DNA of 64,000 nucleotides, taken from contig WYBR01000138.1 of NCBI GenBank assembly GCA_011525805.1, positions 1-64,000 of the forward strand, written 5' to 3'. Shown piece after piece: positions 34,513 through 37,487 of the stretch; position 1 is the stretch's first letter; each line of letters opens with the position of its first letter. This DNA comes from Vicinamibacteraceae bacterium. GTDB lineage: Bacteria > Planctomycetota > Phycisphaerae > Phycisphaerales > UBA5793. Under the pieces are notes generated by a model, which had not been told where the DNA came from, ran no database searches, and saw only the letters and a program-made list of their open reading frames with translations. The position numbers were made by a program, and so were the translations under genes.

Positions 34513-34570
34513 CCATCACCTCGCTCCACAGCCTGAGCGCTTCATGTCCCCTCGAACCCGGAGATGCATC

Positions 34571-36085
34571 ATGCAGTTGGCAGCCTTGGCGCAGCGTGTC
34601 GGCCGATCACCTCATCTGCTTTTCGCGCTGCTGGGCGCGGCGCTCGTGGCGCTTCACGCGCCGATGGCGACCGCCCAGGAAGGCGGAGGAGAAGCGCCGC
34701 CGGAGATCGGCACCCCGCCCATCCCGCCGACGCTCAACTTCACCATGAAGGGCATCGACGGCAAGGAGGTCAGACTCAGCAAACACCAGGGCAAGGTCAT
34801 TCTCATGGTGAACGTCGCCAGCCGCTGCGGCTACACGCCGCAGTACAAGGGCCTGCAACTTCTGCACGAGAAGTACCACGAGAAGGGCCTGGTCATCCTC
34901 GCCTTCCCGGCCAACAACTTCCGCAACCAGGAGCCGGGCACAAACGAGGAGATCAAGGACTTCTGCACGACCAACTACGACGTGAAGTTCCAACTCTTCG
35001 AGAAGGTCTCGGTCAAGGGCGAGGACATCTGCCCGCTCTACAAACTGCTGACCAGCAAAGAGAAGACCCCGGCGAGCGAGGGGGAGATCAACTGGAACTT
35101 CGAGAAGTTTCTGCTCGATCACAACGGCACGGTGGTGAAGCACTTTCGCAGCAAGGCGACGCCCGAACAGATCGAGCCGGAGATCGTGAAACTCCTGGGA
35201 GCGATGCCGGAGTCGGCGGGACGGATCGAAGCGCCGCAACTTGCCGACGCCGCTCCGCGCGATCTGCCGGGCCTGCACAACGTCGTCGCCTACCACGAGG
35301 GGTACTGGTCGGGCAGCGCCCCCGACGGCGCGACGGGTTTCGAAACGCTCGCCGCGCTGGGAGTGAAAACGATCATCAGCGTGGACGGCGCGGCGCCCGA
35401 TGTCGAGACCGCTCGCGCGCGGGGCCTCCGCTACATCCACCTGCCGATCGGGTACAACGGCGTGAGCGAGGAGCGCCAAGTCGAACTCGCCCGCGCCACG
35501 CGCGACGCCCTGGCCCAGGGACCCGTCTACATCCATTGCCACCACGGGCGGCACCGCAGCGCCGGGGCCGCCGGCGCCGTCGCCGTCAGCCTCGGCTGGC
35601 TCACGCCTGATGGGGCCGTCGAGCGCATGAAAGTCTCCGGCACGGCGGCGAACTACACCGGCCTCTACGCCTGCGTTGCACACTCAGCGCCGCTGGACGC
35701 CTCCGTCATCGACGCTGTCAACGCTGACTTCGCCGAGGTGTCGCGCCCCGTCGGCTTCGTGAAGGGCATGGTCGAAGTCGAACTCGTCGCCGACAACCTC
35801 GAGGCAATCGAGAAGGCGGGTTGGACGACGCCGCGCGAGCATCCCGACCTCGTGCCCGCGGCCGAGGCGGGGCGGATGGTCGATCTCTTCCGCGTTCTCG
35901 CCGAGGGCCGCCGCGCCAGGGATGAATCGGCCGAGTTCCGGGCGATGCTCGTCGAGAGCATTAACATCGCGCAGCAGATCGAGGATTTCCTCGTCGCTAC
36001 GACCGCTTCGCGCGCCCAACTCACCGAGCAGTTCCAACGCCTCACCGCCGCCTGCAACGCCTGCCACGCCCAATATCGAGATTGA
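34571..36085 (+). CDS. Secreted glutathione peroxidase / tyrosine phosphatase / CxxCH heme-motif fusion
   Basis: A 504-aa single open frame with GGAG 7 nt before the ATG. Residues 1-36 form a signal peptide. Residues 52-212 are a glutathione/thiol peroxidase domain with the complete tetrad: Cys86 in NVASRCGYTP, Gln120 in NNFRNQEPG, and Trp175 and Asn176 in INWNF. Residues 235-375 resemble a dual-specificity phosphatase, with active site HCHHGRHRS (Cys323, Arg329; C-x5-R). The C-terminal helical region (about 395-504) ends in CNACH (495-499), a covalent heme c motif placed as in cytochrome c-prime. I know of no characterised protein with these three parts. The substrate of the phosphatase part is unknown. 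Confidence 0.88.
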   Translation: MQLAALAQRVGRSPHLLFALLGAALVALHAPMATAQEGGGEAPPEIGTPPIPPTLNFTMKGIDGKEVRLSKHQGKVILMVNVASRCGYTPQYKGLQLLHEKYHEKGLVILAFPANNFRNQEPGTNEEIKDFCTTNYDVKFQLFEKVSVKGEDICPLYKLLTSKEKTPASEGEINWNFEKFLLDHNGTVVKHFRSKATPEQIEPEIVKLLGAMPESAGRIEAPQLADAAPRDLPGLHNVVAYHEGYWSGSAPDGATGFETLAALGVKTIISVDGAAPDVETARARGLRYIHLPIGYNGVSEERQVELARATRDALAQGPVYIHCHHGRHRSAGAAGAVAVSLGWLTPDGAVERMKVSGTAANYTGLYACVAHSAPLDASVIDAVNADFAEVSRPVGFVKGMVEVELVADNLEAIEKAGWTTPREHPDLVPAAEAGRMVDLFRVLAEGRRARDESAEFRAMLVESINIAQQIEDFLVATTASRAQLTEQFQRLTAACNACHAQYRD

Positions 36086-36218: not shown

Positions 36219-37487
36219 ATGCCGCGTTCATTCACTGCATCCGGCGTGTCCATCCTGCTCATCGCAGGTGCGATTGTCGCGCCCGCTTCGACTGTCTTTG
36301 CCCAGCGCGGCTCGCCTTCTGTGCGGACCTCGGAGCGCGTCGAGGCGATGGCGCTGCCCGTCGATCCGATCCGCCCGATCGCCGAGCGCGCTCTGCCGCC
36401 GCGCTTCGATCCGCAGGGACCGCGGCCGGTCATCATGCTCACGGGGTACTGGCCGCCGACGAACGAGGCAGTGCGCCGCTTCAGCGCCGATCCCGCCAAG
36501 AACCCGCAGGGCTGGATCGGATCGAACTGGGAGGGGCGGGGCTACGACGTTTACGCCTACTTCCCCGAGTTCAACCCGCCCAACTGCAACAACTGCGGGC
36601 GGGGCTTTGGCGACCTCGAGGTGGACTACCAGGACACGTCGGCGGACTGGTGGAAGTTCGTCGCGCGGCACAAGCCCATCGCCATCATCACCTTCAGCCG
36701 CGGCGCGATCAACCTGTCGTGGGAAGTGGAGATGAACCAGTACAACCGGGCGCAGTGGATCAACGACTACCTGCCGCCGTACCAGCCGACGCCGGTCCCG
36801 CCGGATTCATCCGTGCCGCCGGGGCACCTGCGCCTCTCGAAACTGCCGGTGCAGGAGATCGTCGATGCGATCAACCAGTCGGGGCTGGGGCTGAACGGGT
36901 TCATCTGCTACAGCGGCGACGGCGGGGGATTCCTCTCCGAGTTCATCGCCTACCACGGCGTGTGGTACCAGGGCCTCAACGCCTCGCCGGCCAGCCCGGA
37001 GTGGTGCGTCTCGGCCGGGCACGTTCACGTCGGCGGCTCGATCACCTGGCCCGTGGCCGAGCAGGCGGCGCAGATCACGCTGCGCACCGTGATGGACCAC
37101 GTCGATGCGGTGCTCGCTCGCACGGTGGTGCAGGAGGACATCGGCTATGGCGGTCCGGGCAGCGCGAAACTCGCCGTCGCGGGCGATGAACTGCGCGAAG
37201 GCGGCGTGGCCGACCTGCTGCTCTACGATGCGCCGGCGAACGCGCGCTTCGTGATTCTCGGCTCGCGGCGGTTCGACCCGCGGAACTACATGGGCGGGGT
37301 CGTGGTACCCCTGCCGCCGAGCGTGATGCACGAGGGCGTGACGGATGAGAACGGGCGCTACCTGCGCAGCGGCATCGCCGGCGGCCGCGGGCGCTTTGAT
37401 TTCTACGTTCAGGCGATTGTCCACGACCCCTCGCAGCCGCAGGAGCGCGGTTTCTCGAACGCGGTGCGGATGGAGTTTTTTCCGTGA
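36219..37487 (+). CDS. Secreted pyroglutamyl-peptidase-like protein
   Basis: A 422-aa protein. Residues 1-29 form a signal peptide (STVFAQ). Residues about 68-280 resemble pyrrolidone carboxypeptidase (peptidase C15): VIMLTGYWPPTNEAVRRF at the start, then GLNGFICYSGDGGGFLSEFIAYHG, and SAGHVHVGG near the end. In C15 enzymes the catalytic cysteine lies in a TAGTYVCN-type motif; by eye that position here is Ser240 (GGGFLSEF), with His268 or His270 as the possible catalytic histidine. Residues 280-422 form a beta-rich tail (NYMGGVVVPLPPSV, NGRYLRSGIAGGRGRFDFYVQ). Activity is therefore doubtful. Start ATG follows GGAGGA by 5 nt. Confidence 0.7.
   Translation: MPRSFTASGVSILLIAGAIVAPASTVFAQRGSPSVRTSERVEAMALPVDPIRPIAERALPPRFDPQGPRPVIMLTGYWPPTNEAVRRFSADPAKNPQGWIGSNWEGRGYDVYAYFPEFNPPNCNNCGRGFGDLEVDYQDTSADWWKFVARHKPIAIITFSRGAINLSWEVEMNQYNRAQWINDYLPPYQPTPVPPDSSVPPGHLRLSKLPVQEIVDAINQSGLGLNGFICYSGDGGGFLSEFIAYHGVWYQGLNASPASPEWCVSAGHVHVGGSITWPVAEQAAQITLRTVMDHVDAVLARTVVQEDIGYGGPGSAKLAVAGDELREGGVADLLLYDAPANARFVILGSRRFDPRNYMGGVVVPLPPSVMHEGVTDENGRYLRSGIAGGRGRFDFYVQAIVHDPSQPQERGFSNAVRMEFFP

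Follow-up and report, generated by a model that had tools for sequence, protein, structure and literature searches.

The window analysed here, a stretch of 64,000 nucleotides of contig WYBR01000138.1, carries on its forward strand a reading frame at positions 34571-36085 that is open throughout, with no internal stop or frameshift, and that encodes a protein of 504 amino acids. In order, the protein comprises a signal peptide, a glutathione peroxidase (GPx) domain, a dual-specificity-phosphatase (DSP) fold, and a C-terminal class II cytochrome ending in CNACH. The features are as follows.

34560..34573, + strand: ribosome-binding site and start codon, GGAGATGCATCATG, kept at the orthologous GPx start in the related genome G297
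34571..34678, + strand: signal peptide, residues 1-36, ending ...LLFALLGAALVALHAPMATAQ, by sequence inspection; relatives of the DSP-cytochrome c' module likewise start with signal peptides or lipoboxes
34733..35206, + strand: GPx domain, residues 55-212, Cys type with a 2-Cys pattern (C86, C132), from PF00255, yeast HYR1, Foldseek, and the tetrad
35207..35263, + strand: linker between GPx and DSP, near whose start the stand-alone G297 GPx terminates (ATG-TAG versus ATG-CCG)
35264..35680, + strand: DSP-like domain, residues 232-370, from the TpbA profile match (8e-11 with the module, 2e-10 with the domain alone) and an AF2 pLDDT of 93-99
35456..35458, + strand: Asn296, at the general-acid position (TpbA Asp105), from the HMM alignment and a spacing of 27 to the Cys
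35534..35560, + strand: P-loop HCHHGRHRS, residues 322-330, with nucleophile Cys323 and Arg329; C, H325, G326, H328, and R329 in 105/105 relatives
35672..35674, + strand: Cys368, a candidate for a second redox cysteine in the DSP domain, conserved in 75 of 105 relatives and in each of the four fusions
35732..36082, + strand: class II cytochrome (c'/b562-type) four-helix bundle, residues 388-504, from profile, AF2, and Foldseek
35768..35770, + strand: Met400, in the first helix, candidate sixth heme ligand, Met in 105/105
36053..36067, + strand: CNACH (495-499), predicted heme c attachment site; CxxCH in all 103 relatives whose end is intact

The start codon of the fusion gene is supported by the conservation of GGAGATGCATCATG at the G297 ortholog. 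An earlier note on this DNA had placed C86, Q120, W175, and N176, the HCHHGRHRS motif at 322-330, and CNACH at 495-499 in one open frame, and all are found exactly there. Directly downstream of the fusion gene (36219-37487, + strand) lies a gene for a 422-residue protein with a signal peptide, which is 84% identical in G297, where its synteny with the GPx is retained.

The GPx domain is recognized unequivocally from the single sequence. The GSHPx profile (PF00255) matches at 6.6e-38, with 129 bits against a cut-off of 27, and the fused GPx is the sole one over the cut-off in its genome. Comparison of the domain with yeast HYR1 gives 7e-38, and Foldseek matches it to GPx with an E-value of 2e-10. 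The tetrad C86/Q120/W175/N176 aligns with that of GPX4 and HYR1 and is kept in 13 of 13 planctomycete GPx sequences. Cys132, on which the earlier reading was silent, aligns with the 'FC' cysteine of HYR1, which is by motif the resolving Cys82. Hyr1/Orp1 uses Cys36 and Cys82, and oxidation is passed from Cys36 to Yap1 (PMC6545440). The tetrad, the peroxidatic Cys86, and the presence of Cys132 at the resolving position are features that the fused domain has in common with Hyr1/Gpx3/Orp1 and with bacterial Cys-GPx; unlike them, it is exported and joined to two further domains.

The single-sequence Pfam search leaves the other two domains open, since the matches to BLH_phosphatase (8.8e-5), Tc-R-P (1.3e-4), and Cytochrom_C_2 (4.6e-4) fall just under the curated cut-offs; PF01322 reaches 21.6 bits with the whole protein and 22.7 bits with the module, against a cut-off of 26.5. 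Family evidence settles both. In the PDB, a profile of the DSP-cytochrome c' module built from 24 members finds TpbA (8e-11) and cytochrome c' (4e-4), and PF01322 and PTP-SAK are matched by 24 of the 24 members, with a best PF01322 value of 2.3e-8. The idea that HMMs would assign all three domains held outright for the GPx; the phosphatase and heme regions, left open by the single sequence, were assigned by the family profiles. In Pfam, the single sequence fits BLH_phosphatase (the former DUF442) best, and the NCBIfam sulfur transferase model TIGR01244 matches at 0.005, so that the middle domain might be read as a DUF442/BLH-like sulfurtransferase handling persulfide beside the heme and the thiol peroxidase. 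We consider this quite improbable: the module profile puts the phosphatase TpbA far above DUF442 (8e-11 versus 1e-4), and an unbroken HCxxGxxRS P-loop that keeps its Arg is the mark of a phosphatase.

Structure prediction, from which three separate folds had been anticipated, is confident for two of them. The heme domain is modeled by AF2 as a four-helix bundle with a mean pLDDT of 94.7, and the DSP domain is equally well defined, but over the GPx the full-length model is poor (pLDDT 54-84), since few fused sequences are available. A PDB search with the full-length model has only GPx among the matches listed, and the DSP fold therefore rests on the profiles and on model confidence. With the heme domain, the sequence profile matches cytochrome c' at 4.5e-5, and in Foldseek the PDB folds ranked highest are those of cytochrome b562, of the cytochrome Kusta0087/Kusta0088 from the planctomycete Kuenenia, and of cytochrome c', with probabilities of 0.99-1.0, TM values of 0.50-0.69, and weak E-values (best 0.068). 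The four-helix bundle with a C-terminal CxxCH that defines class II is present in the fusion protein. The heme domain shares the bundle and the C-terminal CxxCHxx(Y/F/H)R with cytochrome c', c-556, b562, and Kusta0087/0088; unlike these cytochromes, it sits at the C-terminus of a phosphatase-like protein. Met400 may be a sixth heme ligand, as in c-556 and b562, in contrast to the open c'-type site, a proposal drawn solely from its invariance.

A whole-protein search of 294 Planctomycetota genomes returned two kinds of match, one over residues ~46-210 (GPx) and one over residues ~215-504 (DSP and cytochrome). The DSP-cytochrome c' half is a stand-alone, old, and widespread family, to which GPx is attached in one genus. 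It is found in 172 of 394 Planctomycetota genomes (~44%), nearly always in single copy, and a scan of genome contigs gives at least 497 relatives. The absence of GPx from nearly all of these indicates that the DSP-cytochrome c' pair does not need it. The three-part fusion of the earlier note consequently stands as a physical joining and falls as a three-part invention, the two-domain family being widespread and the GPx an addition in one genus. Two DSP-cytochrome c' copies occur in G100 (C25 and C110), the sole such case among the genomes listed.

Conservation was followed in 105 extracted sequences, which include a few same genes drawn twice from two collections; CxxCH was counted over the 103 with an intact C-terminal end. 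Besides Cys323, His325, Gly326, His328, and Arg329, the residues Met400 and Trp418 are invariant in all 105, and in the 24-member alignment the invariant positions are those of HC-x-H-G-x-H-R, of CxxCHxx-x-R, and of the Met and Trp. Chance occurrence of the motifs is excluded by C323 and R329 in every sequence and by CxxCH in every intact one. The proteins of the family carry N-terminal signal peptides, in many of which lipobox-like motifs can be seen by eye. Together, the GSHPx match, the family profiles, the conservation, and the four-helix model bear out three domains in one secreted chain, and we have very little doubt that the anatomy and conservation of this protein are secure. Every domain is known; the combination is undescribed in the literature searched, in keeping with the earlier statement that no characterised protein of this layout was known, and that literature, with subscription papers and preprints outside it, held no description of either a DSP-cytochrome c' or a GPx-DSP-cytochrome protein. 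In public records the family goes by 'dual specificity protein phosphatase' or by 'hypothetical' and nothing more specific; of two plasmid-borne copies, that of Aquisphaera giovannonii (WP_148599161.1) bears the first name and the other is entered as 'hypothetical protein'.

By sequence profile, the nearest solved structure to the DSP half is TpbA (PA3885), the periplasmic DSP of Pseudomonas aeruginosa. Both are exported DSPs with 27 residues from the general-acid position to the Cys, which in TpbA are D105 and C132 (PMC4409338). The acid-loop residues Asp105 and Asp108 of TpbA correspond to family positions 296 and 299, where the fusion protein has Asn296 and Ser299; TpbA, moreover, has no cytochrome or peroxidase domain, and its P-loop reads HCKHGNNR in place of GKHR. 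The fusion protein thus has the HCxxGxxR(S/T) P-loop in a DSP fold and lacks the general-acid Asp of the acid (WPD) loop. As acid-less exceptions are known (PMC9038691), the missing Asp bears on activity and not on fold membership. Asn296 is found throughout the fusion protein's genus, and Ser299 stands where most relatives carry Asp. Across the 105 sequences, position 296 is D in 53, N in 44, S in 5, A in 2, and H in 1, with roughly 20 switches along the family tree, whereas the Cys and Arg never vary. Phospho-hydrolysis, which had been taken as one of the linked activities, is uncertain for the fusion protein since the TpbA Asp105 position is Asn in the whole genus; Asn296 and Ser299 could mean a weak or dead phosphatase.

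The PFA-DSPs (AtPFA-DSP1, yeast Siw14; Pfam Y_phosphatase2), which like TpbA were absent from the earlier reading, share the P-loop HC-x-x-G-K-H-R-(S/T) with the DSP-cytochrome c' family. The GKHR of the DSP half is that of AtPFA-DSP1/Siw14, HC(K/N)RGKHRT (HCKRGKHRT being the PFA-DSP sequence compared), there is no WPD-loop general acid in either case (Asn119 in AtPFA-DSP1, Asn296 in the fusion protein), and the His beside the P-loop Arg is essential in AtPFA-DSP1 (His155) and invariant in the family (His328). AtPFA-DSP1 and Siw14 cleave inositol pyrophosphates without a general acid, and AtPFA-DSP1, which has an Asn in the acid loop, needs the His155 adjoining the P-loop Arg for catalysis (PMC9038691). 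The PFA-DSPs differ in being cytosolic and eukaryotic and in having no heme domain. Overall similarity of the DSP domain to them is weak (1xri 0.003, Siw14 0.17; the PFA-DSP query is identical to PDB 1xri over 92 residues), and at 14.2 bits against a curated Y_phosphatase2 cut-off of 27 the resemblance is limited to the P-loop and acid loop. These local motifs make an acid-independent, anhydride-type substrate plausible.

With Asn296 in the genus and Asn in 44 of the 105 relatives, and with some 20 changes at this position, one might suppose that the DSP fold in the fusion genus binds phospho-ligands without turnover and acts as their sensor, in coupling with the heme domain. We regard such a pseudo-phosphatase as unlikely, given that the nucleophile Cys and P-loop Arg are invariant, unlike those of typical pseudo-phosphatases, that the PFA-DSPs work without the acid (PMC9038691), and that TpbA D105A loses only 53% of catalytic efficiency (PMC4409338).

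Among the module loci, GPx is in frame with the module in only one genus, namely in the genome of this window, in G295 (UBA5793), and in G296 and G298 (KLAP200). Three of the four other species examined in the genus therefore carry the fusion in one open frame, at 61-65% identity to the fusion protein and with varied linker length; the neighborhood of the fused gene differs from that in all three. The source is a 138-contig draft assembly, in which an assembly or annotation artefact could have joined two genes, as the earlier note had allowed. The same domain order in G295, G296, and G298, whose assemblies are independent, and the lack of a stop or frameshift inside the frame leave this explanation a negligible chance, and assembly error is rejected.

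The fourth species, G297, is the exception. Its ortholog (L037, G297:C56, 1335-1600, - strand) is a stand-alone GPx, 89% identical over the domain, in a locus with the same ribosome site, start, and downstream genes as the fusion locus. The junction reads ATG-TAG-GAGTTGGC in G297 versus ATG-CCG-GAGTCGGC in the fusion gene, and homology runs about 8 bases beyond the GPx stop codon before it breaks. The DSP-cytochrome c' gene of G297 is at another locus, in a lipoprotein-like reading frame. A GPx ending at the junction suggests that the fusion was either lost in G297 or gained in the fusion lineage, or that it had more than one origin. The GPx tree does not unite the fused forms, as the G297 stand-alone GPx groups with the fusion protein (support 86/86), yet a single clade of fused forms is not rejected (AU p 0.21), and in the module tree such a clade is equally likely (AU p 0.535). 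The trees do not decide between one fusion and two. The GPx attachment is evolutionarily unstable, its parts being separate in G297.

These data bear on whether the domains cooperate at all. In a simple tethering, a periplasmic, peroxide-scavenging GPx would share its chain and signal peptide with an unrelated DSP-cytochrome c', each acting independently. Such an arrangement would suit the occurrence of GPx and DSP-cytochrome c' as separate genes in nearly all Planctomycetota, the parts standing apart in G297 with the GPx start and downstream genes unchanged, and the location of the fused genes at different loci, with a single fusion left undecided by the trees. It is less easily squared with the retention of the fusion in four species at 61-66% identity, with linkers that differ in length and frames free of decay, or with the retention of catalytic residues in both halves. 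We hold independent tethered activities to be a serious, if tentative, contender.

The likeliest single reading, to which we assign a probability of roughly 40%, is a redox-gated phosphatase. The exported protein would combine a Hyr1/Orp1-like 2-Cys thiol peroxidase, a DSP-fold phosphatase, and a covalent-heme four-helix bundle. The DSP half would be a cysteine phosphatase working outside the cytoplasm, in the periplasm, on a phosphoanhydride or phosphoester. Its GKHR P-loop is similar to that of phosphatases splitting phosphoanhydrides in polyanionic substrates. There the proton can come from the substrate itself, which would account for the frequent replacement of the general-acid Asp by Asn. 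The phosphatase may be under redox control, with the heme domain as a putative sensor of redox state or of a small ligand. In the fusion genus, the tethered peroxidase would clear peroxide beside the oxidisable Cys323, for which Cys368 is a candidate partner in a protective disulfide; alternatively, it might pass oxidation on to Cys323/Cys368 in the way that Orp1 oxidises Yap1. It is the Hyr1/Orp1-type Cys pair and the Yap1 relay that lead us to propose that a tethered GPx could guard or oxidise the phosphatase cysteine. Counting against this reading are the small number of known fusions, only four, the one species of the genus with its parts separate, and the lack of neighbors marking a pathway.

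More speculatively, and with considerable doubt on our part, the DSP-cytochrome c' proteins might be unrecognised exported heme-gated phosphatases in nearly half of Planctomycetota, in which the heme redox or ligand state would control hydrolysis of a phosphoanhydride or phospho-signal, with the fused Orp1-like peroxidase adding direct peroxide gating in one genus. The widespread and apparently unstudied family outweighs the GPx attachment in importance. A conserved, single-copy, exported phosphatase-heme protein in so many genomes points to a common unstudied periplasmic process. The natural fusion offers a ready test of redox control, since the family has members that carry the peroxidase and members that lack it, and both Asp and Asn occur at the general-acid position.

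Gene neighbors conserved across the DSP-cytochrome c' family were found in close relatives and not beyond them, so that no pathway can be named. At five loci (L095, L099, L109, L112, L114), some of which bear the labels Singulisphaera or Planctomycetia, the DSP-cytochrome c' gene is followed after 17-41 bases, on the same strand, by a small gene that looks rhodanese-like by eye. Finally, the contigs of L073, L085, L103, and L111 are titled Leptolyngbya, Chitinophaga, Limnohabitans, and Kuenenia, and their modules fall within planctomycete clades; these titles look like mis-assigned MAG names.
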